Source: Candidatus Culexarchaeum yellowstonense (GTDB taxonomy: Archaea > Thermoproteota > Methanomethylicia > Culexarchaeales > Culexarchaeaceae). Taken from it: a stretch of DNA of 64,000 bases. Below the pieces are notes generated by a model that saw nothing but the letters and a program-made list of their open reading frames with translations, was not told the DNA's origin and did no database searches. This document shows, one piece after another, positions 1 to 15,890 of this stretch; positions within the stretch are counted from its first letter, which is position 1, and each line of letters begins with the position of its first letter. Location: positions 138,007 to 202,006 of the forward strand of contig JANGFR010000002.1 in NCBI GenBank assembly GCA_024707015.1, given 5' to 3'. The translations under genes were made by a program, and so were the position numbers.

Positions 1-1248
1 GGATCTGTGGGGATAGCTGGAGTGCAAACTGGAATATACCCATTTGAAAGCCCTGGGGGATGGAGAATTATAGGTAGAACCCCCCTGAGACTATTCAATC
101 CCAATAAGGATCCCCCAACACTATTCAAGATTGGGGATTACGTTAAATTCAAACCGATAAGTAGAGAAGCCTATGAGAAGATGCTGGAAGCAGAATGGGC
201 TGATGTGGGGAAGTTGAAGATAGAGGGTGAACCCATACTTAGGGTTGAAGCAGCTGGACCTGGAGTATCCATACAGGATTTGGGGAGGGAGGGATATAGG
301 AAGTATGGGGTGCCGGTGTCAGGAGCATTAGATAAGGAATCATTCATAATTGCAAACATGATAGTTGGAAATGAAATCAATGATGCATGTATAGAGATAT
401 TTCAAAGTAGCTTTGAAGCTACAGCCTTACAAGACATTATAATATCGATTTGTGGAGCTAAAGTTGATGGGGAAATAGATGGAGAACCCTTAGAGAATTG
501 TAAAGCAATACCTGTTAGGAGGGGGTGCAAAATCACAATTAACGGATTGAGGGGTGGAATGGTGGCATACATGGCGATCGCTGGAGGGATAAATGAGCCA
601 ATAATACTTGGAAGCAGATCATACTACACTACAGCTGGGATTGGTAGGATTTTAAGTGAAAACTCCATAATAACAACTGCAAAGAATAGGTTCAACGAGT
701 TGATAGATGTATGCCCATCCATGAATATTGATTGGAATAGGGAGGTTAAGGATGAATTTAGGGTGATAATTGGACCACATATAAAACATTTCACAGAAGA
801 GATGATGAATGAATTTTTAAGCATGAAATTCACGGTAACGAGCAATTTGAATAGGATGGGATATAGGTTGGAAAGGGGGGAGGAGGCTAAACTTAGGGGT
901 GTAGGGAGACTTCTAAGCTGTGGAACAATACCAGGAGCAATACAAGTTCCGGGGGATGGAAATCCAATAGTTTTAATGGCCGATGCACAGACCACCGGCG
1001 GATACGCCATAATTGGGAAAATAATTTCACCAGACCTATATGCATTCTCACAAGTTGAACCTGGAAGAAAAGTGAAGTTCAAACAGGTTAGCCTAAGTGA
1101 AGCATTGAAGATATTGGAGGAAAAAGTTAAGATGTATGATGATTTGAGGAGGAAGATTCAAGAGAAGGTGCGGGAATTTGGAGGGAAGTATAAGCATTGG
1201 ACTGTGAAGTTCCAGGGAAAAATATATGATTGTTGGGTTAAGATGTGA
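1..1248 (+). CDS. 5-oxoprolinase subunit B/C fusion (PxpB-PxpC, KipI-KipA), 5' truncated
   Basis: The frame is open to the left edge, so the true start lies outside the window. About the first 60 residues resemble the C-terminal end of PxpB/KipI (IESPGGW-like FESPGGWRIIGRTPL, then IGDYVKF). From about residue 75 the chain continues as PxpC/KipA (VEAAGPGVSIQDLGREGY, later PGAIQVPGDGNPIVLMADAQ), the cyclophilin-like carboxyltransferase fold. A C-terminal tail of about 50 charged residues follows. PxpA, PxpB and PxpC together hydrolyse 5-oxoproline to glutamate with ATP, in the cytoplasm. Here B and C are one polypeptide, as in urea amidolyase-like proteins. PxpA would be expected upstream, which is inference. 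Confidence 0.85.
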   Translation, partial: GSVGIAGVQTGIYPFESPGGWRIIGRTPLRLFNPNKDPPTLFKIGDYVKFKPISREAYEKMLEAEWADVGKLKIEGEPILRVEAAGPGVSIQDLGREGYRKYGVPVSGALDKESFIIANMIVGNEINDACIEIFQSSFEATALQDIIISICGAKVDGEIDGEPLENCKAIPVRRGCKITINGLRGGMVAYMAIAGGINEPIILGSRSYYTTAGIGRILSENSIITTAKNRFNELIDVCPSMNIDWNREVKDEFRVIIGPHIKHFTEEMMNEFLSMKFTVTSNLNRMGYRLERGEEAKLRGVGRLLSCGTIPGAIQVPGDGNPIVLMADAQTTGGYAIIGKIISPDLYAFSQVEPGRKVKFKQVSLSEALKILEEKVKMYDDLRRKIQEKVREFGGKYKHWTVKFQGKIYDCWVKM

Positions 1249-1274
1249 CGCCTTCCTTTCTATTTGGCATAAAC

Positions 1275-2543
1275 TCATTTCTTACTTCTCAAATTCATCA
1301 ATATCTCCTTAGCTTTATCAATTCTTATCGTTTGAAGCCTAACCATCTCAGAAGCCACCTTATCTATTTCATCACCCACAGCTCCAGCCATTATGGCTAT
1401 ATTCCTAGCATGAAGCTTCATGTGACCACGCTGAATACCCTCATATGCAAGAGCCCTTAAAGCTGCAAAGTTTTGTGCAAGACCAACAGCACCCATAACT
1501 TCAGCAAGCTCAGATGCAGATTTAACACCCAAAATTTTTAGGGATATCTTTGCCAGTGGATTGCTCCTAGTGGCTCCACCCACTATCCCAACAGCCATGG
1601 GCACTTCCAACCATCCAATCAAATCCCCATTCTCATCCATCTCCCAAACTGATAATGGCTTATATGTGCCACTCCTACAAGCATATGCATGCGCTCCAGC
1701 CTCCAAAGCTCTAGTATCATTACCAGTTGCTAAGGCCACAGCCACTATACCATTCATGATGCCCTTATTATGGGTTGCAGCTCTATACGGATCTGAAGCT
1801 GCAAACTGATATGCATAAACTATTCCTTCAACCAGATCCTCACCAATAACATCCTTTGGAACCTTGCAGTAAGCTCTAACTAGACGCCTATCAGCCAGAT
1901 TAGAGAGTATCCTCAAGTACACTTTGCCACCAGTAATCTTTTCAATATATGGAGCTATAGCCTCAGCCATAGTGTTAACGGCATTGGCTCCCATAGCATC
2001 CCTAACATCCACGAATAAATGCACGATTATCATGGGGCCTACAGGGGACTGTATGAGTCTAACCTCCAAATCCCTTGCGCCACCACCAAGACTCACCAAA
2101 ACCGGATCTTTCTCATTAGCTAACTTCAGAATTTCATCCTTATGAGACAATATTTGGAACATAGCTTTATGTGGGGATACCACATTAACCAATTGAATTT
2201 GGCCAATCATTATTGGCTGAGTGCTATTTGCAAATATTCCGCCGCCATCACGCATGATCCTAGCAGCATTACTTGCAGCTGCAACCACAGACGGCTCTTC
2301 AATGACCATGGGAATAATGTAATCCCTACCATTAATCAAGAAGTTCACTGCAATTCCAAATGGTAGCTCGAAGGTCCCAATAACATTCTCAATCATCTTA
2401 TCAGCCAAATCCACAGACAATCTACCACACTTAGAAATCAAAGCAACTTCATCATCAGTTAAACCAGCAAAATCCTTAACAAACTTCAGCCTCTCACTAA
2501 TGGACATCTTATAGAAGCCCGAAACCCTTGAGCTTCTAGACAA
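1275..2543 (-). CDS. mvaA: Hydroxymethylglutaryl-CoA reductase, class II
   Basis: Converts HMG-CoA and mevalonate, the key step toward archaeal isoprenoid lipids. The sequence follows the class II (Pseudomonas mevalonii) type: ENVIGTFELPFG at about 52-63, catalytic Glu83 in EEPSVVAAAS, DAMGAN cofactor motif at 182-187, catalytic Lys260 in THNKGIMNG, Asp276 in GNDTRA and His374 in QRGHMKLHAR. The start is TTG at 2543; the first 25 residues (SRVSGFYKMS) align with the usual class II N terminus, so the internal ATG 12 codons later would truncate it. The class is often called degradative, but archaea with only this class use it for synthesis. It is convergent with the oxoprolinase gene and divergent from etfB. 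Confidence 0.95.
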   Translation of the reverse strand: MSRSSRVSGFYKMSISERLKFVKDFAGLTDDEVALISKCGRLSVDLADKMIENVIGTFELPFGIAVNFLINGRDYIIPMVIEEPSVVAAASNAARIMRDGGGIFANSTQPIMIGQIQLVNVVSPHKAMFQILSHKDEILKLANEKDPVLVSLGGGARDLEVRLIQSPVGPMIIVHLFVDVRDAMGANAVNTMAEAIAPYIEKITGGKVYLRILSNLADRRLVRAYCKVPKDVIGEDLVEGIVYAYQFAASDPYRAATHNKGIMNGIVAVALATGNDTRALEAGAHAYACRSGTYKPLSVWEMDENGDLIGWLEVPMAVGIVGGATRSNPLAKISLKILGVKSASELAEVMGAVGLAQNFAALRALAYEGIQRGHMKLHARNIAIMAGAVGDEIDKVASEMVRLQTIRIDKAKEILMNLRSKK

Positions 2544-2608
2544 AACTCAACACCCATAGAAGGTATGAAGAACTTATAGCATTAAAGGTTTTCCCAACGA
2601 AAAATAGC

Positions 2609-2618
2609 ATTAAATACT
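2609..2618 (+). promoter_or_regulatory. Likely TATA box for etfBA
   Basis: The element CATTAAATAC lies 24-28 bases before the ATG at 2637, so transcription would start near 2637 and leave about 15 bases before the preferred ATG at 2652. An 11-base direct repeat (ATAGCATTAAA) occurs at 2576-2586 and 2604-2614, the second copy overlapping this element. Confidence 0.5.
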
Positions 2619-2651
2619 GATGGAATACTATATGAAATGAGGGTTAAGCGT

Positions 2652-3422
2652 ATGGAGATAGCCGTATGCATAAAACAAGCATTGGATGTATCCCAACTAA
2701 AGGTGGATCCTAAAACCCTCGAACCATTAATACATGTAACACCAATGAAGATGAGCGATATAGATAGAAATGCATTGGAAGAAGCACTAAGGATAAGGGA
2801 GAAACATGGTGGAAAGGTGACTGCAATAAGCGTTGGAGGAGATAAAGCTAAGGAGGTTTTAAGGGAAGCCATAGCCATGGGTGTAGACAACGCCATACAC
2901 ATATTAAACGACATTGGCGAAGTTGATGAGCATATAGTTTCAGAGGCATTAGCTGAAACTTTAAAGGTTAAAGGACCATTCCAAATAATACTCTTTGGTG
3001 AAATGTCCATAGACAAATATACAGCACAAGTAGGAGTTAGAGTTGCTGAGAAACTTGGAATCCCATGCATAACATACGCTAGAAGCATAAGCATAGATGG
3101 AGGGGAGGTTATAGCTGAAAGGGATCTAGAAGATAGAATTGAAATAGTTAAAGCCAAAATGCCAGCGACAATAACGGTGACTAGGGAAATAAACACACCT
3201 AGACTACCACAATTAATAGCTATACTTAGAGCTGCAAAGAAACCTATAGAAACACTAAATCTAAGCCAATTAAAAGTGGACCTTAAACCAAAACTTAAAA
3301 CATTAAGCGTAATGGGGGTTGAAGTTAAAAGGAAGGGGGTGGTGATAAAGGATCTACCAGTGGATAAAGCGGTAGACGAACTAATCAACAATCTAATTAG
3401 GGAGGGGGTTATAAAGAGGTGA
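2652..3422 (+). CDS. etfB: Electron transfer flavoprotein beta subunit
   Basis: Beta subunit of the ETF heterodimer that accepts electrons from acyl-CoA dehydrogenases or related flavoenzymes. The family pattern is clear: MEIAVCIKQALD at the start, the AMP/FAD region GVDNAIHI, then the conserved core DKYTAQVGVRVAEKLGIPCITYA and the C-terminal TITVTREINTPRLP signature. I prefer ATG 2652 because the family begins at this point and GAGGG at 2639-2643 gives 8-base spacing; an in-frame ATG at 2637 is possible. The etfA start follows within 6 bases, so the two are one operon. The nearest plausible electron donor is the acyl-CoA dehydrogenase at 12154-13437. Confidence 0.93.
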   Translation: MEIAVCIKQALDVSQLKVDPKTLEPLIHVTPMKMSDIDRNALEEALRIREKHGGKVTAISVGGDKAKEVLREAIAMGVDNAIHILNDIGEVDEHIVSEALAETLKVKGPFQIILFGEMSIDKYTAQVGVRVAEKLGIPCITYARSISIDGGEVIAERDLEDRIEIVKAKMPATITVTREINTPRLPQLIAILRAAKKPIETLNLSQLKVDLKPKLKTLSVMGVEVKRKGVVIKDLPVDKAVDELINNLIREGVIKR

Positions 3423-3427
3423 AAAAC

Positions 3428-4354
3428 ATGCATGCAACAATATTCTCAGAATCCCCCGAAGCATTAATAGAAATATCCACAAAATTAAGGGAAACCCTAA
3501 CAGCAGACTTAAGAATAGATGGAATAACAAAGGTGGAAGTGAGAAATCCAGGAGATTACGGTATAGACAAGCTACACATAGTGAAGGATTTGAAGAGCAT
3601 GTATGAAGCTGAGGCAATTATAGGGAAGGTTGCCAAGGAATCCAGTTCAAAACTTATAATTCTAGAATCAAACAAGAATAACAGGGAGATAGCTGCAAGA
3701 ATAGCTGCAAAACTAAATGCAGGATACATAGCTGACTGCATAGATTTAAGATTGGACTCCGACGGGGGTATAGTTGCCAACAGAATGATTTACGCTTCTA
3801 AAGCCATTGAAACCATAAAATCGATGTCAGACGTAACAATCATGACTATGCCCAGAAGAATTACAGAGCCTAAAGCCCAATGGAAAATAAAATGCGAAAT
3901 AGTTTATGAAGATACCCCAAAAGTTAAAGCTAAAACAACAATAATTGATGCGAAGAGGAAGGAGCTAAGTGCAATTCCGCTGGAAGCTGCTGAAGTCATA
4001 GTGTCTGTGGGTAGAGGATTTAAGAGGAAGGAAGATTGCAAAATGGCTGAGGAATTGGCGAAAATACTTGGTGGAGTAGTATCATGCAGTAGGCCAGTAG
4101 CAGCAGACTTAAAATGGTTTAACGAGTGGGTTGGCCTCTCAGGACATAAAGTCAGCCCAAAACTATACATCGCCATTGGAATTTCAGGTGCAATACAGCA
4201 TCTAGCTGGAATACAGGGGGCAAAAGTAGTTGTTGCAATAAATAAGGATGCAGAAGCGCCAATGATAAAATCCGCTGATTACGGTGTGGTCGCAGACCTC
4301 TACGAATTCATACCAAAACTCATAGAGAAACTTAAAGCTACTGGTGCAAAGTAA
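3428..4354 (+). CDS. etfA: Electron transfer flavoprotein alpha subunit
   Basis: The C-terminal FAD domain is diagnostic: SVGRGF, then SRPVAADLKWF, VGLSGHKVSPKLYIAIGISG, AIQHLAGIQGAKVVVAIN and DYGVVADLYEFIPKL. About 309 residues is the usual length. A strong ribosome site GAGGTGA at 3416-3422, embedded in the end of etfB, lies 5 bases before ATG 3428 and decides that start over an overlapping GTG at 3419. Together with EtfB it carries FAD plus AMP, or two flavins in bifurcating types. The sequence alone does not show which type this is. It lies directly before hdrA, which suggests that ETF feeds an Hdr-like complex. Confidence 0.94.
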   Translation: MHATIFSESPEALIEISTKLRETLTADLRIDGITKVEVRNPGDYGIDKLHIVKDLKSMYEAEAIIGKVAKESSSKLIILESNKNNREIAARIAAKLNAGYIADCIDLRLDSDGGIVANRMIYASKAIETIKSMSDVTIMTMPRRITEPKAQWKIKCEIVYEDTPKVKAKTTIIDAKRKELSAIPLEAAEVIVSVGRGFKRKEDCKMAEELAKILGGVVSCSRPVAADLKWFNEWVGLSGHKVSPKLYIAIGISGAIQHLAGIQGAKVVVAINKDAEAPMIKSADYGVVADLYEFIPKLIEKLKATGAK

Positions 4355-4369
4355 AATCCAAAAATCTTT

Positions 4370-4377
4370 TTTAAATA
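4370..4377 (+). promoter_or_regulatory. TATA box for hdrA, next to a T-run that may end etfBA transcripts
   Basis: TTTAAATA sits about 25 bases before a predicted start of transcription near 4400. A run of six T (4367-4372) directly after etfA overlaps it and could act as an archaeal U-rich terminator for etfBA. The compact arrangement makes the two signals share bases. Confidence 0.5.
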
Positions 4378-4410
4378 TTCCATGAAATACTGTATTCGTG
4401 GTTGAGTGAA

Positions 4411-6366
4411 ATGGTTAAAGTTGGAGTCTACATATGCCACTGCGGTAAGAATATTGCCGGAGTAGTTGACGTCAAGAGGGTTGTGGAGGAAGTTAGGAAA
4501 TTAAATGAAGTTTCAGTGGCTAAAGATTACATGTTCATGTGCTCTAAGACAGGTCAGCAATTAATAATTGATGATATAAAGGCTGGAAGGGTGGATAGGG
4601 TTGTTGTGGCGGCATGCTCACCAACAATGCATGAAGAAACATTCATGAGGGCATTGGAGGAAGCGGGACTTAACAGATTCATGTTTGAAATGGCAAACAT
4701 TAGGGAGCAAGATTCATGGGTTCACTACAACGATCCAGAAGCTGCAACTGAGAAGGCAATAGACATAGTTAATGCAGCTGTGAAGAGGGTTTCAAAGTAT
4801 GAGCCGTTTGAAAGGGGGAAACTACCCGTAGTTAAAAGGGCTTTGATTATAGGTGGGGGGATAGCTGGAATTAGAGCTGCACTAGACATAGCCGATGCAG
4901 GTATAGAGGTGTATTTAGTGGAGAAATCTCCATCCATAGGGGGTAAGATGGCGCAATTGGATAAAACATTCCCCACACTGGATTGCTCACTATGCATACT
5001 CACACCACTAATGAATGAAGTTTCAAAGCATAGAAACATAAAATTACTAACAAACTCGGAGGTTGTGGATGTTGGGGGGCGGGTTGGATCATTCCAAGTG
5101 AAGATTAAGAGAAGGGCAAGATACGTTGACATTAACAAATGCGTTGCATGTGGAATGTGTAATGAGAAGTGCCCAGTAAGTGGAATACCAGATGAATACA
5201 ATTGTGGTTTGAATGGTAGGAGGGCGATATATAAGCCATATCCCCAAGCAATACCAAATGCATACATAATAGATCCGAACCATTGCTTAAAGATAACTAG
5301 AGGAATATGTGGAGTATGTGAGAGAGTCTGCCCAGCTAAAGCCATAAACTTCAATGATAAAGATGTGGAAGTAGATGTGGATGTTGGAGCAATAATAATT
5401 GCAACTGGATATGAACTTATGAATCCAAAGGAGCTGGTGGAGTATGATTATGGAAAGTTTAAGGACATCGTGACTGGATTGGAGTTCGAGAGAATATACT
5501 CGGCGGAGGGGCCGACCAAGGGGAAGATAGTTAAGTTGAGTGATGGAAAGGAACCCAGGGAAGTAGCAATAGTATTATGTGCAGGATCTAGGGATGAGAG
5601 GCATCTACCATACTGTTGCAATGTGGGATGTATGGCTGGACTAAAACATGCATACTACATTGCATCATCAAACCCTGAAATAAAGACATACATATTCTAC
5701 ACGGACATAAGGACTTACGGCAAAGGATACGAGGAATTCTATAGGAGAATTAGGGAATTGGGCAATGTACACTTCATTAGGGGAAAGCCCATGGAAGTTA
5801 GATTTGAAGATGGAAAGTTGACATTCGAAGTTTTCGACATGAATTTGAATGAGTTATATAAGTTTAGGGTTGACATGATTATACTTGAAACTGGACTCAT
5901 ACCAAACCAATCCTCCATAGATCTCGCATCTAAACTTAAGATCCCAAGGGGTGTTGATGGATTCCTCTTAGAGGCGCATCCAAAGCTTAGGCCTGTGAGT
6001 GCACCATCACGTGGAATATACATATGTGGATGTGCACAAGGATTGAAGGATATACCATCAAGTATAGCTCAAGCATCCGCAGCAGCTGCCGAAGCAATAA
6101 AACTGCTAATTAAAGATGAAATTGAAGCTGAACCATACATTGCAGAGGTTGATGAAAGTAAATGTAGTGGATGCGGAATATGTGCATCGGTATGCCCATA
6201 TAAAGCGATAAAAATGAATATTGAGAAGAAGGTGGCTGAAGTGAATGTTGGAGCATGCATGGGATGTGGAATTTGCGCATCTGCATGCCCATCAAAAGCC
6301 ATAAAACAAAGGAGATTCACAGATGAATCGATAATTGCAACAATAGATGCCATACTAGCTAAATGA
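4411..6366 (+). CDS. hdrA: Heterodisulfide reductase subunit A-like iron-sulfur flavoprotein
   Basis: HdrA is the FAD-containing electron-bifurcating hub of Hdr complexes. Seen here: N-terminal VGVYICHCGKNIAG, FAD-binding GGGIAGIRAALDIADAG at about 148-164, DCSLCILTP at 191-199, ferredoxin motifs CVACGMCNEKCP (244-255) and CGVCERVCP (300-308), and C-terminal CSGCGICASVCP and CMGCGICASACP. At the non-ferredoxin cluster, Cys390, Cys402 and Cys407 are kept, but the position of the third methanogen ligand is Gly406, while Cys403 is extra. About 651 residues is typical. Start ATG 4411 is chosen over TTG 4402. Partners HdrC/HdrB are convergent just downstream. Whether the substrate is CoM-S-S-CoB or another disulfide or electron carrier is not decided by the sequence. 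Confidence 0.93.
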   Translation: MVKVGVYICHCGKNIAGVVDVKRVVEEVRKLNEVSVAKDYMFMCSKTGQQLIIDDIKAGRVDRVVVAACSPTMHEETFMRALEEAGLNRFMFEMANIREQDSWVHYNDPEAATEKAIDIVNAAVKRVSKYEPFERGKLPVVKRALIIGGGIAGIRAALDIADAGIEVYLVEKSPSIGGKMAQLDKTFPTLDCSLCILTPLMNEVSKHRNIKLLTNSEVVDVGGRVGSFQVKIKRRARYVDINKCVACGMCNEKCPVSGIPDEYNCGLNGRRAIYKPYPQAIPNAYIIDPNHCLKITRGICGVCERVCPAKAINFNDKDVEVDVDVGAIIIATGYELMNPKELVEYDYGKFKDIVTGLEFERIYSAEGPTKGKIVKLSDGKEPREVAIVLCAGSRDERHLPYCCNVGCMAGLKHAYYIASSNPEIKTYIFYTDIRTYGKGYEEFYRRIRELGNVHFIRGKPMEVRFEDGKLTFEVFDMNLNELYKFRVDMIILETGLIPNQSSIDLASKLKIPRGVDGFLLEAHPKLRPVSAPSRGIYICGCAQGLKDIPSSIAQASAAAAEAIKLLIKDEIEAEPYIAEVDESKCSGCGICASVCPYKAIKMNIEKKVAEVNVGACMGCGICASACPSKAIKQRRFTDESIIATIDAILAK

Positions 6367-6372
6367 GGAGAG

Positions 6373-7230
6373 TTAAATTCCAAATTTACCCATAAGCAAA
6401 TTGACTGGAGACTTATTTAAGTTGAGAGCCACATCCCTTGGACTTAAACCAATAGCCAACCCAAGCAGCTGCGTATAGTATAATATGGGAATCTCCCCCT
6501 TAAACCCTGAAACTTTACATGCTTCCTCATAATTTTTATCCATCATCACACCACCATGAGGACACGCTATTACAATGCCATCAGTTTTCGATGCAAGTTT
6601 AAGTCTACTCCCAGCCAAAGTCAACCCCGTATTGGCATTAGTGTTGTATATTGCCCATCCACAACAATCCAAGCATAACTCAACATCAGCTCCAAGAATT
6701 TTAACGAGATCCATAAGCATATGTGGCTCATGGGAATCGTCAGGGCGACCAATATCATTAGGCCTAAAATAGAGACATCCTGGATGTATTGAGAATTTGA
6801 AGCCCTTAAACCCCCTCTTAACGCTACTCCTCAATTTCTCAAGCCCAATATCCTCATATAGCAATTGAATTATGTGCTTGAAATTCAAATCACCCTTATA
6901 CTTCAACCCCTCCCTTGCAAGTAAACTGTTAACCCAAGACCTTAAAGCTTCATCTTCATCGAGAAGCTTCTTCACATATGTTAATGATTCATGACACCAA
7001 TTGCAGAGAAGTATGCATGGCTTACCATAACCCTCAAGAACAGACATCAATCGTGCTGACAAGTATACCCAACCATAGGAGTTAACACTCCTAAGTGGCA
7101 GACCACAACAATTAACATTTTCAGCATAACTGAAATCCACATTTAAACTCTTCAATACATTCACAGCTGAAAGCTCATATTGATACTGATCAGTGGAGCT
7201 TAAACAGCCTGGGTAAAGTATGTATTCCAA
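6373..7230 (-). CDS. hdrB: Heterodisulfide reductase subunit B-like CCG-domain protein
   Basis: HdrB carries the catalytic non-cubane clusters, each usually held by a five-Cys CCG motif. The first motif is complete: Cys9, Cys41-Cys42, Cys76, Cys79 (YPGCL, NCCGLP, CNWC). The second keeps Cys152, Cys189-Cys190 and Cys223, but the last ligand position reads CPHG (Gly226) instead of CPxC. The start is TTG 7230: MEYILYPGCL matches the family start, and AGAGGGGTG at 7246-7238 gives a 7-base spacing. The longer frame from ATG 7263 overlaps hdrC and is less likely. The TTG follows the hdrC stop by two bases, so translation is coupled. It ends 6 bases from the convergent hdrA stop. Confidence 0.9.
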   Translation of the reverse strand: MEYILYPGCLSSTDQYQYELSAVNVLKSLNVDFSYAENVNCCGLPLRSVNSYGWVYLSARLMSVLEGYGKPCILLCNWCHESLTYVKKLLDEDEALRSWVNSLLAREGLKYKGDLNFKHIIQLLYEDIGLEKLRSSVKRGFKGFKFSIHPGCLYFRPNDIGRPDDSHEPHMLMDLVKILGADVELCLDCCGWAIYNTNANTGLTLAGSRLKLASKTDGIVIACPHGGVMMDKNYEEACKVSGFKGEIPILYYTQLLGLAIGLSPRDVALNLNKSPVNLLMGKFGI

Positions 7231-7232
7231 TG

Positions 7233-7751
7233 CTACACACCCCTCTGAAATGCATCCATACAATTGGCTTGAAAAACATCCACATTCTTGGGGCCACTAA
7301 GTTGTGGTAGGCTGAGCTTCGATCGATCATAGGTTAAACCATCAGAACCTACAACTCCAATAGCATCCTGTATAAACCCGGATTCCAAAACCTTTGAAAG
7401 CATATTTGAATACGCATCTGGAACGCTTCCACCCTCAATTATGCTGAGATTCCTAAGTACAATGAATATCTCAGATGGATTAACCTTCTGTGGGCATGTA
7501 TCCCTACACTTCTGACATTGAGTGCAAGCCCAAATAACATCAGACTTCAAAAGTTCAGGTACTAAGCCAAGTCTAACCATATCCACAACCCTATGCGGGA
7601 AGTTCTCCATCAAAAACATAACGGTGCAACCACTAGTGCATTTACCACACTGTAAACATGCAAATGGATCCATAATTGAGGGGAAATTTTTGAGCCTCCT
7701 AACAAGCTCAACATTAGCCTTCTCAGATAAAACAGTCACATCAGCCCACAA
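7233..7751 (-). CDS. hdrC: Heterodisulfide reductase subunit C-like ferredoxin protein
   Basis: HdrC passes electrons between HdrA and HdrB through two [4Fe-4S] clusters. Both motifs are complete: CLQCGKCTSGC (about residues 33-43) and CTQCQKCRDTCP (about 76-87), separated by the usual helical stretch with PHRVVDMVRLGL. About 172 residues is normal. The start is taken as TTG 7751, which sits about 25 bases after a TATA box, giving a leaderless transcript; a GTG at 7739 is an alternative. It forms an operon with hdrB and is the first gene of it. Confidence 0.9.
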   Translation of the reverse strand: MWADVTVLSEKANVELVRRLKNFPSIMDPFACLQCGKCTSGCTVMFLMENFPHRVVDMVRLGLVPELLKSDVIWACTQCQKCRDTCPQKVNPSEIFIVLRNLSIIEGGSVPDAYSNMLSKVLESGFIQDAIGVVGSDGLTYDRSKLSLPQLSGPKNVDVFQANCMDAFQRGV

Positions 7752-7769
7752 GCCAGTTACCCCAAACCA

Positions 7770-7780
7770 GTTTTATAATG
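7770..7780 (-). promoter_or_regulatory. TATA box for hdrCB
   Basis: On the minus strand CATTATAAAAC lies about 25 bases before TTG 7751. It is part of a short inverted repeat TATAAT-GGG-ATTATA at 7774-7788. Confidence 0.5.
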
Positions 7781-7806
7781 GGATTATATTTAAGGTTGAT
7801 TGTGAG

Positions 7807-8229
7807 CTAAATCCAAGCTAATGGATCTACAAATCCAAGTAAATATGATATGAGGTATGCAAACATGTTAACCATCAATAGTAAACTTATAGTGCCCCCA
7901 AAATCCAGTTTACCCCTAAGAAGAGTGTATCCATATAATGGCACCTCCACTATCAAGTTGGAGCCTATATATAGCACTATGAACAACCCTAGAAATGCCA
8001 TTACACTGGAAAAGTATAGGTAGAGTAGAGTATAGCTAAAATATGTGGATACAACATTCATAACCATACATAGGAAGCCAGAGGACACTAGGGATATTGC
8101 TAGAACGCTAACTATGAATTTAAGGTTCCTTGCAAGCTTTCCGAGGAAGAATTGTAGAGAAAGCTCCTTAACAATCAAATTCAATATGAATATGTACATG
8201 AACCTGTACAGCAAGCCAAGATAATCCAA
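7807..8229 (-). CDS. Hypothetical membrane protein, about four helices
   Basis: A 140-residue hydrophobic protein that I do not recognise. Hydrophobic stretches lie at about 8-28, 38-60, 65-92 and 112-132, separated by short charged loops (KLARNLK, RGKLDFGG). No catalytic motif is visible. A palindromic AT-rich element ATGTTT-TT-AAACAT at 8246-8259 lies about 25 bases before the ATG and could be its TATA region, giving a leaderless transcript. It sits between comB and hdrC on the same strand, but spacing and its own promoter signal argue that it is a separate unit. Function unknown. Confidence 0.6.
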   Translation of the reverse strand: MDYLGLLYRFMYIFILNLIVKELSLQFFLGKLARNLKFIVSVLAISLVSSGFLCMVMNVVSTYFSYTLLYLYFSSVMAFLGLFIVLYIGSNLIVEVPLYGYTLLRGKLDFGGTISLLLMVNMFAYLISYLLGFVDPLAWI

Positions 8230-8270
8230 ACCAGGTCACAAATATATGTTTTTAAACATGAATATGAAGC

Positions 8271-8966
8271 TTATGTTTTAAATCTGAAAGCTATGAATCC
8301 TTCACCATCCCATACTGGTATCACATCAAAAACATCTACAGCACCACAATACTCAACATCCTGATTAAAGCCCAACCTAATTAAATTCCTACCAGAAGAT
8401 GTCAATTTCAAGAATTGGGAAAAATCATTTGTAGGGGGTTTATCTATGGAGCCCAAAATCATATCACGTAAAACTTCAGCACACAGCAAATCCTCAGAAC
8501 AAGGAGATCCATACCTACCAGCACAAGCCAAAACAACATCTAAACCATATTTCGATGATAAATGCCTAATATAATTGCATACTGAAGAAATGTTTAGGAA
8601 GCACGCTAAAACCATGTGCTCAGCATCCTTAAAGGAATCAACAATCTTAGCACAATTACTACTCGTAAAGGATATATACTTCCCAAAAACGGATTCACGG
8701 GAAAACTCCATTGGAGAATTACCTAAATGGAACCCCTCAATCCTCAAGCCACCACGCTCACCAGCCAAAATACAATTCGACATCCTCCTATGGAATTCAA
8801 TGGCATCTTCAATTTCCCTAAAAACGTAAACTTTCAAAGCACCATTAGCCAAAGCTGTAGTTATGGTTGAAGATGCCCTCAAAACATCAATTACAACTAC
8901 AACCTTATCTTTAACGGGAATGTTGAAGCGATCACCAATACCAAAACATATTTCAACCTTAACCAT
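8271..8966 (-). CDS. comB: 2-phosphosulfolactate phosphatase family protein (ComB-like)
   Basis: ComB dephosphorylates 2-phospho-3-sulfolactate, the second step of the ComABC coenzyme M route. Recognised by VVVIDVLRASSTITTAL near residue 23, the GERGG...GFHLGNSP region near 70-85, TSSNC near 102, and ACAGRYGSPCSEDLLCAE near 147-164. At 231 residues it has the family length. ComB homologues also occur in organisms without coenzyme M, so the real substrate is uncertain. It lies next to hdrCB and the DUF6754 cluster. A TATA-like TTTATATTA at about 8990-8998 precedes the ATG by about 25 bases. Confidence 0.85.
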   Translation of the reverse strand: MVKVEICFGIGDRFNIPVKDKVVVVIDVLRASSTITTALANGALKVYVFREIEDAIEFHRRMSNCILAGERGGLRIEGFHLGNSPMEFSRESVFGKYISFTSSNCAKIVDSFKDAEHMVLACFLNISSVCNYIRHLSSKYGLDVVLACAGRYGSPCSEDLLCAEVLRDMILGSIDKPPTNDFSQFLKLTSSGRNLIRLGFNQDVEYCGAVDVFDVIPVWDGEGFIAFRFKT

Positions 8967-8989
8967 ACAATAAACTAAACTATAGGTCT

Positions 8990-8999
8990 AATATAAAGG
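8990..8999 (-). promoter_or_regulatory. TATA box for comB
   Basis: On the minus strand CTTTATATTA precedes ATG 8966 by about 25-30 bases, consistent with a nearly leaderless transcript. Confidence 0.45.
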
Positions 9000-9001
9000 T
9001 T

Positions 9002-9007
9002 AAAAAA
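9002..9007 (-). terminator. T-run after the DUF6754 cluster
   Basis: On the minus strand, six T residues follow about 20 bases after the stop of the last gene in the cluster (stop at 9026-9028). U-runs of this kind end many archaeal transcripts. No hairpin is evident. Confidence 0.35.
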
Positions 9008-9025
9008 TGTTGTTATTTTTTGTGT

Positions 9026-9667
9026 TTATGGCCATGGAATTATCTTAAACACTTGCAGTAGGTACTGAACTCTCCCTGCAAGCATTGTCATTCTGAATTG
9101 GACAGTATTGCCATAGTATGCTCCAAGGCCTACCAGCAGTATATATCTACCGAGCTTCGTTGGATAGTAGTACCATCCAGTATGCTCAACTGTGAATGTA
9201 AAGTATGATATTATCAGCAAAGTTCCTAAGCATATCCATGCAAAATTGAACCAGTCCAATGCAGTTGCGGTTGCACCAGGCGGAGTTATTGACCCCCTAA
9301 TTTGAGCTATTATATTTGCTGTAAGTGCACCTCTAATGGTAACTCCGAAACCTAAACCCATTAGGAACATTACAGTATACCTACTTATCCACCTAACACT
9401 CTTGAATGGCAATGTGAGAAGCATTAACCCCAGTATTACGCCTACAATGTATATGTACTGGCCGCTGGCTATACGCAATACTATCTGGTTATAGATTTGT
9501 TGGGTTGAAATGGTTAATGCAACTGCGAAGGAGCTTCCAACATACAGATACTCTGCAAACCTGTAGACCTTAGTCTCCTTATAGAGGATGTAGCTGTATA
9601 TTGCCAGTGTGAGGAAGGCTCCAACCCAAGCTCCAATTATTCCATCAATTGTTGAGGGGTATGGCAT
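9026..9667 (-). CDS. Multi-pass membrane protein of the DUF6754 cluster (gene 4)
   Basis: A 213-residue protein with about six hydrophobic segments, near residues 7-26, 39-57, 71-88, 96-114, 140-160 and 172-190. Loops are short; I see no known transporter or enzyme motif. Strong ribosome site GGAGGTG lies 6-7 bases before ATG 9667, and the ATG shares one base with the TAA stop of the preceding gene. It is the last of four co-directional, overlapping genes, so it probably belongs to one membrane complex. Function unknown. Confidence 0.8.
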   Translation of the reverse strand: MPYPSTIDGIIGAWVGAFLTLAIYSYILYKETKVYRFAEYLYVGSSFAVALTISTQQIYNQIVLRIASGQYIYIVGVILGLMLLTLPFKSVRWISRYTVMFLMGLGFGVTIRGALTANIIAQIRGSITPPGATATALDWFNFAWICLGTLLIISYFTFTVEHTGWYYYPTKLGRYILLVGLGAYYGNTVQFRMTMLAGRVQYLLQVFKIIPWP

Positions 9668-10536
9668 TACTTCCCACCTCCCTTACGTTTAGTCATAAAG
9701 TAGCCTATATTGGCGAAGATTATTGCTATTATCACTAGTAGGTGTGATATGTTTAATGCATCTAAGCTTGTCGTCGCTTCACCAAGTTGGCCAATGAGCT
9801 TCTCATATTCAGCTGCCCCCCTAATACCCTTAAGTGCACCCACAGCTAAACCTGCTTGATAATATGGTATGAATGTTGAATAGTTCATGGCTATGCCGAT
9901 CTCAGCCACGGCAGTTCCATACCTCATCCTCCACTGCCTCACATAGTAATCTCCATAATCACCAGTTGTTGAATCAACTACAATCTTAATGTCCTTAGCT
10001 GAGTTCACATTCTTCATTAGAGGTATCTGATCTATTGGTGTTCCATACTTGTCAGTTCTGAGAACGTTACGTATATTATCAGCCAACTGAGCCACCGTCG
10101 TCTCGCCACCAGCAATGTATCCAAAGTAAACCCAGTCAACACCATACTTGTAGTCTCCAGGCCCTGCAGGCTGACCTGGACCCTTAAGCTGTGGAATCCT
10201 CGCCATGATGGCTTCCATGGTTAAATCACAATCGGTGTATCCAACACACCAATAAATTATCTTTACACCACGTTGCACAAGATGCTTAGATACAGCGACA
10301 AAGCCAGGTAAGCATTCAGACCATGCGGAGACACCATATTCTATTGCCATCACAACCACATCGTTAGGACCAAGGGTGTTAATGTAATTGTACAGTGCAT
10401 AGCTGGTTTCAGCTATTGATACCGGTAGACCTAGGGGTTTAATGTATGGTATAGCCAGAGATATGAACAGTACCCAGTATAGGACCCTCCTATCTATGGC
10501 TCCAAGCTTCTCCCAAACAGTTTGAGCTCCACCCAT
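9667..10536 (-). CDS. Two-anchor protein with extracytoplasmic domain, DUF6754 cluster (gene 3)
   Basis: About 289 residues. One helix lies at about 17-35 (YWVLFISLAIPYI), a soluble domain of about 220 residues follows, and a second helix near 262-280 ends in KRKGGGK. By the positive-inside rule (RR before helix 1, KRK after helix 2) the large domain should face outside. It shows alternating strands and helices: DVVVMAIEYGVSAW, RGVKIIYWCVGYTDC, KIVVDSTTGDYGDYYV. Two Cys lie 5 residues apart (WCVGYTDC). Start ATG 10536 is preferred because GGAGGTGG is about 6 bases upstream; ATG 10542 overlaps the prior stop. I do not recognise a function. Confidence 0.8.
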   Translation of the reverse strand: MGGAQTVWEKLGAIDRRVLYWVLFISLAIPYIKPLGLPVSIAETSYALYNYINTLGPNDVVVMAIEYGVSAWSECLPGFVAVSKHLVQRGVKIIYWCVGYTDCDLTMEAIMARIPQLKGPGQPAGPGDYKYGVDWVYFGYIAGGETTVAQLADNIRNVLRTDKYGTPIDQIPLMKNVNSAKDIKIVVDSTTGDYGDYYVRQWRMRYGTAVAEIGIAMNYSTFIPYYQAGLAVGALKGIRGAAEYEKLIGQLGEATTSLDALNISHLLVIIAIIFANIGYFMTKRKGGGK

Positions 10537-10538
10537 TT

Positions 10539-11204
10539 TCATCCACCTCCAGTACCAACAGTTGTGACCCTCTTCTCAGCGCCCACGGCAACCCGCAATC
10601 CGAAGTACACTATTCCAAGTGCAGCTGTAATGTTTAATGCACGCATACCAGGAGTTTGACCAGTCATTTGAAGCCAATCGTTTATATATGGAATTCCACC
10701 CCATATAACTTCCCCTATCGGTGCATTCCCAAGCATAACTAGGCATCCGGCAACTAGAAGTATCGTAGCTTCAAAGCTTCTCGCCCTGAAAGCCCTATAA
10801 GCGGCTGAGAATATGTAGAATCCTGTGGTGGCGTAGAGTGCTGCTCCAAGAGGTGTGTAAACCCAGTTGAATGGCCACTGATATACTTGATTTGTAATTG
10901 AGGGCTTGGCAATTTCTGGTAGTGCCGCTAGGAATGGTATCAAACATGATGCGAACATTACTATGCTGAAATACCATACTCCAGGAGTTCTACGCTGGAT
11001 ATTGTATATATGTACTCTAGCAGCTGTTAAGAAGCCTAGCCATGTGGCGAAGTAGCTTATGTGGGTTGCGAAGGTCTGTAACCATGTAACCCAATCTATC
11101 ACTGTTGGAACATTGAAGAAGTATGCAAATAATGTCAACCCCATAACTACACCTGCAATGAACATGAACACTTCAGGTCTTCTTAGAAAAGCAACTGTAC
11201 TCAT
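10539..11204 (-). CDS. Multi-pass membrane protein of the DUF6754 cluster (gene 2)
   Basis: About 221 residues with roughly six hydrophobic segments (near 10-30, 44-62, 76-95, 112-132, 140-160, 184-202). No conserved enzyme motif is recognised; a long loop with PSITNQVYQWPFNW lies between segments three and four. The start is ATG 11204, with GAGGTG 9 bases upstream; the GTG at 11216 would overlap the ribosome site. The gene stops within the start region of gene 3 (ATGA overlap), which indicates translational coupling. It is probably a membrane subunit of the same complex. Confidence 0.8.
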   Translation of the reverse strand: MSTVAFLRRPEVFMFIAGVVMGLTLFAYFFNVPTVIDWVTWLQTFATHISYFATWLGFLTAARVHIYNIQRRTPGVWYFSIVMFASCLIPFLAALPEIAKPSITNQVYQWPFNWVYTPLGAALYATTGFYIFSAAYRAFRARSFEATILLVAGCLVMLGNAPIGEVIWGGIPYINDWLQMTGQTPGMRALNITAALGIVYFGLRVAVGAEKRVTTVGTGGG

Positions 11205-11209
11205 ATTTA

Positions 11210-12013
11210 TCACCACCTCAGAAAACCACTTATATACTTAATTCCGAGAGGTTCAAGTATGAAACCCAATATCAGCAGCGCCATCAACACAAACTTTATC
11301 CAATCCTCACCAGCAATGGTTGCTATTTGATAAGGATCTTTGGAAATATATGCACTTGCGGCATAAATCTCCTCCCCTATCAAAACGTAATCGCATACTG
11401 CAATTATGAATGGTAGCTGATGGGTGTTTGCAGTTCCACCAATAGTCATCGCTCCAACGAAGTTTGCAGCTTCACCAATAACCACAGACTCATAGTATAA
11501 TCCTCCAATCATGAAGAATGCTGCTGGACGTAAACGTTGAAGATGCCCAAGGATTCCAGTAACCATGGGGGATTGCCCTGGGAAGTAGTTCAACATCTTT
11601 GGATCGTACTTTTCAGGCTTCCCCTGCTTCAAATATGCAAGCCTAATAGTTTCATCCATTAATGGTATGGCATCACCTTGAGCAAAATCGATAATGAGCG
11701 GTACATCATATCTTGCGCATCCCTCAGCCACATAGCTCAATATGGTTATTGAAGCCACCATTTGAGGCCCCTGCTCAGAGGCGAGGCCTCCAGTAATGCC
11801 TGGAGTGAATAACGCTGGCTTACCCATCTCAGCACATCTACCCACAGCTTCATCAATAGCGTCCATTGCTGTTAGACGTCTCATCTTTGGAGGTCTACCC
11901 ATCTTTGCAAGTCTCAAACCTATATAGAAGAAAACTATTAGCAGTATTAATATCACTAGGCTGCTTCCACGCCCTGCAAATAGTATTTGCCCAGCAAATG
12001 TTGGGTTCAACAA
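11210..12013 (-). CDS. DUF6754 domain protein, first gene of the membrane cluster
   Basis: About 267 residues: an N-terminal helix near 17-36 followed by RLAKMGRPPKMRR, which places the main domain in the cytoplasm, then a C-terminal helix near 235-255. The domain matches what I know as DUF6754: AMDAIDEAVGRCAEMGKP, PGITGG, GDAIPLMDE, RLAYLKQGKPEKYDP, then AMTIGGTANTHQLPF and DYVLIGEEIYAASAY. The family occurs in archaea and Chloroflexota and has no assigned function as far as I know. Start TTG 12013 follows GGAGGG by 5-6 bases. It has its own TATA box and two inverted repeats upstream (12032-12069). Confidence 0.85.
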   Translation of the reverse strand: MLNPTFAGQILFAGRGSSLVILILLIVFFYIGLRLAKMGRPPKMRRLTAMDAIDEAVGRCAEMGKPALFTPGITGGLASEQGPQMVASITILSYVAEGCARYDVPLIIDFAQGDAIPLMDETIRLAYLKQGKPEKYDPKMLNYFPGQSPMVTGILGHLQRLRPAAFFMIGGLYYESVVIGEAANFVGAMTIGGTANTHQLPFIIAVCDYVLIGEEIYAASAYISKDPYQIATIAGEDWIKFVLMALLILGFILEPLGIKYISGFLRW

Positions 12014-12153: not shown

Positions 12154-13437
12154 TTAAGCCCTAACATATTCGCTTCCAAGGAGGTCTCTGGCTATTATGT
12201 ATTTCATTATGTTTTGAGCTCCCTCAGCGCCTATGGCATATGAGAATGTTCCAAGCCAAGCTCTATATACTGGGCATTCCTTGGTATATGCGAAAGCCCC
12301 ATACCATTTCATAACTTCCTCAGCTAAATCAGCAACTGCCAGTGGAGCCCACATCTTAGCCAATGAAACTGGAACGTTCAGATCCCTTGGATTCACGGTT
12401 GGATCCTTCTCCACATAAACTTTATCCGCAAGCCTTGCAGCTCTATAAACGAAGTATCTTGCAGCTTCATACTTTGCATATAGCTCGGCAAATGGGAAGC
12501 TTACACCTTGAAATGATGATATATATCTCCCCTCAAACAGTTTCCTCTGCTTAAACCATTCAGCAGCCCTCTCCAAAAGCCACTTCATCGCACCAACACA
12601 TGCAGCTGAAACCAGTATTCTAGCTAGGTTGAACCCCTCCATCACATAATAGAATCCCCTATTCTCCTCGCCGAGGAGGTATTTGGCGTCAAGCTCAAAG
12701 TTCTCCAATATGAATCCTCCAGTAGTGAGGCCGTGCCTACCAATGTCATGATATATTGTTTGATGAAACCCTTTACCTAACACGCCATTCCTCCTAGCTA
12801 GGAAAGCGAAGGCCGATAACCCCCTATGACCGGGGCCACCAGTCCTAGCCACTAGGAACCATCCTCCACCCCATGGAAGCTTCTGAACCTCTCCAACACC
12901 GCTGATGTAGGCTTTTTCACCATTGAATATGTACTTTGAACCCTCCTTCCTGGCCGTAGTCTTTATCCCAGCAATGTCTGAGCCTCCCTGAGGCTCTGTT
13001 GTTGATATTCCAAAGAACGCCCTCCCCTTAGCCACCTCTGGTATTATCTCTTGACAAACCTCTTCACCGCCAAAAACCTGTAGAGCGAAGGGCCAACCAT
13101 TATTTAGGAGCGTATATACAGCAATGGCCACCGCTGGATCAGCATAAGCTATCTCCTCAGTGGCTATTGTAGCCATGGTGTATGTTCCATCCTGCCCCCC
13201 AAACTTCGAGCTACATGGGATTGCAAATAAGCCTTGCTCACCCATCTTAGAGTATAGGTCTAATGGTATTTTCATGGGATCCTTCTCAGCCTCCTCATCA
13301 ACTTTAACCCATACTGGCGCAATATACCTATCACAAAACTCCTTAACAACCCCCCTAAACATCTCCTCATCCTTACTGAAACTTAGAACCGTGTCCTTCG
13401 GGTAATTTATTAGTGGCGCACTCAATCCAATCACCAA
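12154..13437 (-). CDS. Acyl-CoA dehydrogenase family protein
   Basis: FAD enzyme that oxidises acyl-CoA thioesters to enoyl-CoA and normally donates electrons to ETF. Domains run in the usual order: N-terminal helices (EEMFRGVVKEFCDRYIAP), the beta domain with GISTTEPQGGSDIAGIKTTA and FNGEKAYISG, and the C-terminal helical domain with RILVSAACVGAMKW and a Glu in GAEGAQNIMKY at the place of the catalytic base. About 427 residues is slightly longer than the typical 380. The acyl substrate cannot be read from the sequence. TTG 13437 is taken as start; GTG 13434 is next in frame. It lies upstream of, and co-directional with, the DUF6754 operon, but that operon has its own promoter. Confidence 0.92.
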   Translation of the reverse strand: MVIGLSAPLINYPKDTVLSFSKDEEMFRGVVKEFCDRYIAPVWVKVDEEAEKDPMKIPLDLYSKMGEQGLFAIPCSSKFGGQDGTYTMATIATEEIAYADPAVAIAVYTLLNNGWPFALQVFGGEEVCQEIIPEVAKGRAFFGISTTEPQGGSDIAGIKTTARKEGSKYIFNGEKAYISGVGEVQKLPWGGGWFLVARTGGPGHRGLSAFAFLARRNGVLGKGFHQTIYHDIGRHGLTTGGFILENFELDAKYLLGEENRGFYYVMEGFNLARILVSAACVGAMKWLLERAAEWFKQRKLFEGRYISSFQGVSFPFAELYAKYEAARYFVYRAARLADKVYVEKDPTVNPRDLNVPVSLAKMWAPLAVADLAEEVMKWYGAFAYTKECPVYRAWLGTFSYAIGAEGAQNIMKYIIARDLLGSEYVRA

Positions 13438-14026: not shown

Positions 14027-14665
14027 GTGATAAAAATGGATTTAACAGAATTCCTAAGGGAGATTGAAGAGATAAAGAGGGGGCTTTACGAAAAATATGA
14101 AGCCAAGGAGAAGATATACCTCAAAATTAGGGAAGCGCAAAGGCTCTGTGGAGAAGCAATATCATTAATACAACAAGAAATGATGGAAGAAGCTAAAACG
14201 AAACTTACCTCAGCGGAAAAAATGATTGAGGGAGAATTTAGAAACCTAGAAGACACAGAGGTAATGGAAGATTTAAACGAAGCCTACACCACAATGCTAC
14301 AAGAATACGTTGAAGCAAAAGCACTACTTGAAATGGAAGAGGGGCATGGAATACCTAGGACAAGCGATCTAAAAGTACCAGTAAAAGCATACATACTTGG
14401 ACTAGCAGACTTAATTGGAGAATTGAAGAGGAGGACTATAACGAGCCTAATAAAGGGGGATGTGGAATCTGCGAAGATTAGAATGGACCTCATGAACAAA
14501 ATATTCCAAGCATTAGAATCCCTAGAGTACCCTAGATCACTAGTTCCAGGATTGAGGAAGAAGCTCGATGACATGAGGAAGAGCATAGAAGACTTGGAGA
14601 GGATAATGGCTACATCAATAATCTCCATGAAATTATATGAAACACTACGCAATATTTACGGCTAG
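14027..14665 (+). CDS. Translin family protein
   Basis: All-helical protein of 212 residues. The C half carries the translin/TRAX pattern: VKAYILGLADLIGELKRR, SLIKGDVESAKIRMDLMNKI, LEYPRSLVPGLRKKLDDMR. In eukaryotes, translin with TRAX forms the C3PO ribonuclease; archaeal single-gene homologues assemble into octameric shells and can be RNases. Acidic residues in EYVEAKALLEMEE, GELK and GDVE are candidates for metal binding. The start is GTG 14027, with GAGGT about 5 bases upstream. It is likely co-transcribed with the unknown gene before it. Confidence 0.8.
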   Translation: MIKMDLTEFLREIEEIKRGLYEKYEAKEKIYLKIREAQRLCGEAISLIQQEMMEEAKTKLTSAEKMIEGEFRNLEDTEVMEDLNEAYTTMLQEYVEAKALLEMEEGHGIPRTSDLKVPVKAYILGLADLIGELKRRTITSLIKGDVESAKIRMDLMNKIFQALESLEYPRSLVPGLRKKLDDMRKSIEDLERIMATSIISMKLYETLRNIYG

Positions 14666-14720: not shown

Positions 14721-15890
14721 ATGATAAGAACCATAATACTCGGGCAAGGGATGGTTGCAAACTACTTCGCAGTTGGATTGGAAAGGATAAAGGCTGGAGA
14801 AATACCACCCTATGGAGTCCCACTAGCCAATGTAAAATTGAGGAGGAAGATAGAAGAAATAGAAATCGTGGGAACATACGATGTAGATGCAAGAAAGGTT
14901 GGGAAAACAATATATGAAGTGGCAAAGAAGGAAATAGGGGAAGTATCACCAATACCTGAGAAATTGAAGGAGGTAGAAGTTAGGGAGGGGGTGCATCTAA
15001 GAAGTTTAAATGGAGTTTTAAGTGGAGTCTTGGGATTGGAGAGGAAGATGACCTTAAAGGATGCCGTAAATATTATTGTTGATCAATGGAAGGAAATGAA
15101 TCCAGACGTCATAGTAAACATCATAACAACGGAAAGTGCGAAACCAGTCAACGATATAAGCGAATTGGAGGAGAGGATTAATGGAAATGATGTTGAAAAG
15201 TTAGCTGCAACACAAGTATATGCATACGCCACTTTGAAGTATAGGGAGGAAACTGGGCGTAAAGTGGCATTCGTAAATGCCATACCAACACCAATAGCCA
15301 ACGATGAAAACATTGTTAAAATGTATGAAAAGAGCGGCTTACCACTATTTGGGGATGATGGAGCTACAGGTGCAACACCATTAACTGCAGATTTATTGGA
15401 GCATATGGCCATGAAGAATAGGAAGATTGAATTCATAGTTCAATTCAACATAGCTGGAAACACAGACTTCCTAGCATTGACACTACCAGAGAAGAATTTG
15501 ATGAAGGAAGTTACGAAGAGTAGCATGATAAAAGATATACTTGGATACGATGTCCCACACTATATAAAACCCACGGGATACCTAGAGCCTCTAGGGGATA
15601 AGAAGTTTGTGGCAATGCATATGGAATACTACACATTCAACAATTTAAAGGATGAAATATACATTAATGTCAGGATGAATGATAGCCCAGCACTGGCGGG
15701 GCTACTAGTGGATCTAGTTAGGATTGGGAGGATATGCATAGATAAAGGTATTTGTGGGGCAGTATACCCGGTAAACTTATTCTACATGAAGATGCCAGGG
15801 CCACCGGGATCAAAATCCACATCGAAGATATTGGCATTCCAAAAACTTAAAGAGTGGCTTAGAGAAATAGATGGATTGGTAGAGGGGTAG
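14721..15890 (+). CDS. ino1: Inositol-1-phosphate synthase
   Basis: Converts glucose 6-phosphate to 1L-myo-inositol 1-phosphate with NAD, supplying archaetidylinositol lipids and possibly the solute di-myo-inositol phosphate. The sequence starts with a Rossmann glycine-rich turn (IILGQGMVANYFAVGLE). It contains NAIPTPIAND, the family core GDDGATGATPLTADLLEHM at about 212-230, QFNIAGNTDFLAL near 239-251, and HYIKPTGYLEPLGDKKF near 276-292. At 389 residues it is the short archaeal form. The stop touches the start of the next gene, so the two are coupled. Confidence 0.93.
   Translation: MIRTIILGQGMVANYFAVGLERIKAGEIPPYGVPLANVKLRRKIEEIEIVGTYDVDARKVGKTIYEVAKKEIGEVSPIPEKLKEVEVREGVHLRSLNGVLSGVLGLERKMTLKDAVNIIVDQWKEMNPDVIVNIITTESAKPVNDISELEERINGNDVEKLAATQVYAYATLKYREETGRKVAFVNAIPTPIANDENIVKMYEKSGLPLFGDDGATGATPLTADLLEHMAMKNRKIEFIVQFNIAGNTDFLALTLPEKNLMKEVTKSSMIKDILGYDVPHYIKPTGYLEPLGDKKFVAMHMEYYTFNNLKDEIYINVRMNDSPALAGLLVDLVRIGRICIDKGICGAVYPVNLFYMKMPGPPGSKSTSKILAFQKLKEWLREIDGLVEG

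Follow-up and report, generated by a model that had tools for sequence, protein, structure and literature searches.

A 64,000-nucleotide stretch of the Candidatus Culexarchaeum yellowstonense genome (hereafter the window) carries four adjacent minus-strand genes at positions 9026–12013, which we call A, B, C and D. A encodes a protein of the DUF6754 family. We propose, with a probability of about 0.5, that the four products form one obligate membrane complex, and that this complex plugs as a module into a larger system, probably for metabolite transport, whose modules share a hub of three further proteins, E, F and G. Five observations carry the proposal: a conserved gene unit, the joint divergence of its proteins, a charge bias across the membrane, the co-occurrence of hub genes with the unit, and an excess of modules over hubs.

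The gene unit is widespread. A scan of contig databases confirmed at least 292 relatives of A, and we examined the best 80 loci of these, reading gene order from longest open reading frame (ORF) calls and starts. The 80 loci come from nine groups: Bacillota, Zixibacteria, Cloacimonadota, Stahlbacteria/WOR-3, Eisenbacteria, Planctomycetes, Acidobacteria (Terriglobia), Bathyarchaeota and Culexarchaeia/Methanomethylicota. Other taxonomies may unite the last two in a single phylum. An earlier reading of the window from its letters alone (the sequence-only reading) had proposed a four-gene assembly and had set conserved gene order beforehand as its test. The order is indeed conserved: 82 of the 90 DUF6754 genes in these loci begin a full A-B-C-D series, with a median gap of 13 bases (measured from longest-ORF starts). 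Contig ends cut five others, and three are exceptions (L043 has A without BCD; L052 and L068 lack a called D, or both C and D). Among the window's genome and 60 relatives, DUF6754 is found in five genomes, all of one order and with four to seven copies each. A survey that took in 27 of their 29 DUF6754 matches found all four genes in 26 of 27 modules, the remaining one being cut by a contig end. The closest named relative among the matches listed is Ca. Culexarchaeum nevadense, whose A is 93% identical.

The four proteins have also diverged together. Their pairwise distances correlate with r of 0.74–0.83 over 102 modules, a level reached by none of 1,000 within-genome module shuffles (shuffle maximum 0.57); repeats of genomes already counted (L014–L023, L032, L035, L079 and L083) were left out of this set. 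Whole-genome counts of C and A are equal in 13 of 15 genomes (the 14 and 14 of G061 include fragments), and G005 and G067 each have one extra C, a piece at the edge of a contig. Three of three genomes that lack A also lack C. Modules number up to about 15, in a 1.5-Mb genome. From these genomic comparisons, the idea that A–D form one complex is well supported as a unit of order and co-divergence. What the sequence-only reading took for the whole assembly, however, is a repeated module of a larger system that includes hub genes E, F and G. Its status as an exchangeable module, within a system that we did not find described in the literature searched, is a more interesting fact than the four-gene unit itself.

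All four ORFs in the window are real, and each is preceded by a ribosome-site-like stretch, as the sequence-only reading had held. A (11210..12013, 267 amino acids) starts at a TTG at 12013 with GGAGGG upstream. It matches PF20539 with an E-value of 1.1e-67 and 228.3 bits against a Pfam curated cut-off of 27, covering profile positions 10–254 of 257, and so belongs to DUF6754. For B (10539..11204) the better start is the ATG at 11204, preceded by GGTGGTGA, which gives about 221 amino acids; the GTG at 11216 would give 225. C (9667..10542) follows GGAGGTGG and has 291 amino acids from the ATG at 10542, or 289 from the ATG at 10536, which has the better spacing. D (9026..9667, 213 amino acids) starts at the ATG at 9667, downstream of GGGAGGTGG, and its start codon overlaps the TAA stop of C. 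Most of the A/B overlap vanishes with B starting at 11204. Profile scans gave no Pfam match for B, C or D at an E-value of 1 or below, and the sole NCBIfam match among these three was one to C that is not significant (E-value 0.12). As had been claimed for motifs, no transporter, redox or secretion family was matched in the Pfam and NCBIfam scans of A–D.

The large domains of A and C are predicted to lie on opposite sides of the membrane. A has two spans flanking a Rossmann-like domain. Averaged over homologues (90–105 per family), lysine plus arginine sums to 6.2 beside the spans on the domain side of A, against 1.4 and 1.1 at its ends; the corresponding values for C, which has two anchors, are 2.3 in the middle and, at either end, 3.1 and 3.2. 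Both flanks are included in the middle sums. This bias fits a cytoplasmic large domain in A and an external one in C, in agreement with the sequence-only reading. Eight long bacterial A proteins point the same way: they have an extra N-terminal stretch before the first DUF6754 span, led in seven of the eight by a hydrophobic, signal-peptide-like segment, which fits an external N-terminus of A. In Cloacimonadota G081, two A proteins of 944 and 909 amino acids (L132:1633–4467 and 6747–9476) carry a very large N-terminal part before DUF6754. A fibronectin-type identity was considered for the extra domain, and we have left it unnamed, since four scanned proteins gave one weak match below cut-off (E-value 0.0071, L074). 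Of the two proteins previously called multi-pass, B looks like six spans with the N-terminus inside and an ambiguous last loop (from family-mean hydropathy); D is multi-span as well, with three spans by script and an uncertain span number.

AlphaFold2 modelled A and C with confidence (pLDDT 93.2 and 94.1), and both models are Rossmann-like; the alignments behind them comprised 75 of the 90 listed A and 84 of the 87 listed C sequences, plus the window's own. Foldseek against the PDB returned no match for A at an E-value of 0.001 and one for C with a TM-score of 0.27. A second structure comparison (VIA) gave Sir2 1s7g as best listed match for A (Z 11.7, rmsd 3.6 over 146 residues) and 1kjn for C (Z 9.7, rmsd 3.6 over 139 residues), with the CODH subunit chain 9c0r_C on both lists (Z 9.3 for A, 8.8 for C). 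Profiles run against the sequences of solved structures found nothing for A at an E-value of 5 or for E at 0.1, a best value of 0.6 for C, and for F a best value of 0.026, to a KOW region of SPT5. Profile comparison lent no support to homology of A with C or of B with D, even though the A and C models are both Rossmann-like. Conserved residues are found in C (E247 and N278, in 99% of 95 homologues) and in D (R96, Q122 and R192, in 97–99% of 90). A is the best conserved subunit, at 40% among the window genome's paralogues against 30–33% for the others.

Three further families recur beside the modules. Clustering of neighbouring genes placed E in 12 loci, F in 11 and G in 10, all on the same strand as ABCD with the exception of one F. 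E belongs to the MutL family PF13941 (E-value 1.6e-121; 406.7 bits against a Pfam cut-off of 27). F has an RnfC_N-like barrel-sandwich domain (PF13375; E-value 4.3e-7 in L031 and, for the window genome, 2.4e-4, which falls below cut-off) and elsewhere gives only weak KOW and biotin/lipoyl matches, and G is a short protein without a family name. The seven genes stand in a row as G-E-F-A-B-C-D in L074, L081 and L100. Zixibacteria G064 has a small two-span protein, then G, E and F, then tandem ABCD modules, with a third module seen in L042; there, a 214-residue membrane-like gene (L042:8841–9485) stands between A and B of the third module. The complete Fermentithermobacillus chromosome has one E-F-G-E-F locus and 14 scattered A matches, including two fragments. 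In the window genome there is a single E (C1:825347–827155), adjoining the only F, and a single G (C1:125083–125394). A DUF483-matching gene lies beside this G, and another between F and G in the bathyarchaeal locus L064.

Hub and module genes occur together. F is present in all five DUF6754 genomes among the 61; the other 56 gave no convincing F, with one partial match (E-value 7e-4) in G045. In 34 further ABCD genomes, two of which are among the five, F was found in 33 and E in 30. G was found in 34 of 38 genome rows (one genome is listed twice) and is single in 29 of those 34. Copy numbers are asymmetric: the A:F:E:G ratio is 7:1:1:1 for the window genome, and four Zixibacteria genomes have 5:1:1:1. 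Five Fermentithermobacillaceae genomes (G061, G067, G072, G074 and G084) have 10–15 A matches, 5–10 F, 5–6 E and one G, so that the single part there is G rather than E or F.

Each module has its own surroundings. The window genome (1.7 Mb in 42 contigs) contains seven DUF6754 genes, each heading a one-strand A-B-C-D series. The B gene of one of the seven (L012:9430–10016, C1 near 1053400) is broken by an in-frame stop; its orthologues in L115, L122 and L127 are full-length, and the stop could reflect decay of this copy, an error in the assembly or read-through. The modules of the five genomes sort into seven orthologue groups, and every group has flanking genes common to at least two genomes. 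For the window's group, four of five members share an acyl-CoA dehydrogenase, recognized by Pfam, upstream of A (12154..13437), a 140-residue protein without a Pfam match (7807..8229), a 4Fe-4S protein of the Fer4 families (7233..7751), which we take to be HdrC-like, and a CCG-domain protein (PF02754; 6373..7263), presumably HdrB-like; all four are on the minus strand. The acyl-CoA dehydrogenase and Hdr neighbours named by the sequence-only reading are tied to this one paralogue of seven. Hdr-like genes adjoin two of the seven modules, the window's and that of L009, where we assume from inspection that the genes at 281–4619 and 9543–10949 include HdrA/B/C-like and carboxylase-like ones; the dehydrogenase/Hdr set is otherwise absent from the other six groups. 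Such neighbours may hint at the substrate of this copy rather than at a general function. Farther out in the window, a Translin-family protein (14027–14665, E-value 4.3e-15) adjoins a myo-inositol-1-phosphate-synthase-like gene (14721–15890).

How might such a system work? C would display a variable Rossmann-like domain outside the cell, B and D would form most of the membrane part, and A would extend its Rossmann-like domain into the cytoplasm. A is the likeliest contact for the shared hub because it is the best conserved subunit. The hub would consist of E, with the actin/Hsp70 ATPase fold of its family, F, with its barrel-sandwich and KOW-like parts, and the short G, and it would supply or gate energy. 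Several modules, each with metabolic genes of its own alongside, could be served by a single hub and would each move a different small metabolite, probably by uptake of peptide- or acid-like catabolic substrates. Scattered multi-copy modules with their own metabolic neighbours and common partners match the pattern expected if substrate-specific transporters shared a motor; sensors would give a similar one.

The neighbours offer leads to substrates. Amidohydrolases account for 7 of 122 ORFs near ABCD and M20 peptidases for 4 of 122, whereas neither exceeds 1 of 101 at a greater distance (counts without a significance test; the scans covered 122 of the 185 near ORFs and all 101 distant ones, from a longest-ORF caller that includes some false ORFs). 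A D-aminopeptidase (Peptidase_M55) comes after F in the window genome, and by eye we take genes near bacterial hubs to be DmpA-like and D-cysteine-desulfhydrase-like. Substrates related to peptides or D-amino acids are a possible lead for some modules; for the window's module, an acyl-CoA precursor may be one. The passages on Culexarchaeia in PMC9723716 describe these archaea as able to import peptides and amino acids and to oxidize fatty acids; those passages do not mention the ABCD system.

Several observations weigh against the transport proposal. E was not found in 4 of the 34 ABCD genomes, three of which (G066, G089 and G091) do have F, while G094 (0.7 Mb) has neither; G was not found in 4 of the 38 rows. 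The E and F of Bacillota are multiplied, extra E-F pairs occur away from ABCD, and one such pair (L140:6714–13498; G061, C1:1880000–1895000) adjoins what by eye we assume to be ABC ATPase-like and FtsX/MacB-type permease-like genes, so that the hub is not single without exception, and E-F may also serve other machinery. All three archaeal E proteins examined (for example L110:8321–10180) read GVGLGGATTN where bacterial ones read GVDIGGATTD; we take this to be the second phosphate motif, and its alteration makes ATP hydrolysis doubtful there. Co-divergence among the window genome's own six to seven paralogues is not significant (r −0.22 to 0.39, exact permutation). Finally, the structure matches of A and C are only generic Rossmann ones, and a fold held in common reveals no function.

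Other explanations have to be set beside transport. The modules could be a sensory array, in which a metabolite would bind to the external domain of C and A would signal to an E-F-G hub common to all, in the way that chemoreceptors feed a joint signalling core. The multiplicity of modules with an external domain, beside a single hub, would suit this, and specific metabolic neighbours suit sensors equally. Four conserved membrane subunits would, however, be costly for a receptor, and A–D and the window genome's E, F and G have no kinase, response-regulator or DNA-binding Pfam match; we think this explanation improbable. A membrane-bound enzyme or envelope-building complex, with modules acting on different extracellular or lipid substrates and a hub that assembles or activates them, would account for Rossmann-like domains on both sides of the membrane and for the hydrolases among the neighbours. 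No known catalytic family was matched, though, and many copies beside varied catabolic genes would suit transport better, so we rate this explanation just as low as the sensory one.

A redox or ion-pumping respiratory complex, its window copy coupled to the nearby acyl-CoA dehydrogenase, electron-transfer flavoprotein (ETF) and Hdr genes, draws on the conserved neighbours of this paralogue and on the RnfC_N-like domain of F. We consider it unlikelier still: those neighbours are confined to one orthologue group, save for the Hdr-like genes near the L009 copy, and A–D show only isolated cysteine or histidine columns above 50% conservation (A207, B69, C87, C267 and D40), with no CxxC, CxxCH or paired-histidine cofactor ligands conserved across their alignments. 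The explanation to which we give least credence is that E, F and G serve as general accessories, of B12-dependent mutases for instance, and lie near ABCD by chance. E is in Pfam MutL, the named NCBIfam members of that family are mutase accessories, and the Bacillota have E-F pairs away from ABCD. Nevertheless, glutamate mutase E (PF06368) was above cut-off in none of the 38 rows, with one weak match in G061 (E-value 2.2e-4; other mutases were not searched), which argues against E as an ordinary mutase accessory. Moreover, the window genome's E scores 210.6 against a GlmL cut-off of 475, F tracks ABCD among relatives, and the G-E-F-ABCD arrangement is operon-like.

A metabolite transport system remains our preferred explanation, and it would raise a further possibility: a new class of modular transporter in Bacteria and Archaea, with four-protein substrate-specific modules, as many as about 15 in a genome, served and driven by one actin/Hsp70-fold MutL-type hub rather than by an ABC or P-type motor. 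We put this forward tentatively and regard it as somewhat doubtful. Either way, this is a conserved membrane system of at least seven proteins in bacteria and archaea, without a described function in the literature found: our search returned no paper naming DUF6754, PF20539 or PF13941, and broader searches gave nothing relevant among the entries listed. Through the hub-and-module pattern, a domain of unknown function becomes a testable question about what each module handles, and about whether an actin/Hsp70-fold ATPase can run membrane traffic. Uptake in little-known anaerobes, Fermentithermobacillaceae and Culexarchaeia among them, may be explained by this system.

Parts of the system resemble known proteins. 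PF20539, of which A is a full-length member, is described in Pfam as one protein with no known function, whereas in this system it has three fellow subunits and hub partners. F has a barrel-sandwich domain of the RnfC/NqrA kind, but no Rnf or Nqr partners were seen and the rest of F gives only weak matches. E shares a Pfam family with the MutL/GlmL accessories of B12-dependent mutases; it differs from GlmL in being longer, in standing beside F, G and ABCD, and in its NCBIfam scores, falling short for TIGR01319 (143.8 against 204) as it does for GlmL. A parallel in logic is offered by energy-coupling factor (ECF) transporters, in which, according to PMC4820897 and PMC7755397, several substrate-binding membrane components are believed to compete for a single energizing module. 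No ABC ATPase or EcfT match was obtained in A–D or the window genome's E, F and G, the proteins scanned; each ABCD module is made of four proteins, and its ATPase-like partner belongs to the MutL family. The copy numbers would nonetheless fit the same logic of hub and module, with seven ABCD modules here to one E, F and G, though E and F are multiplied in Bacillota.

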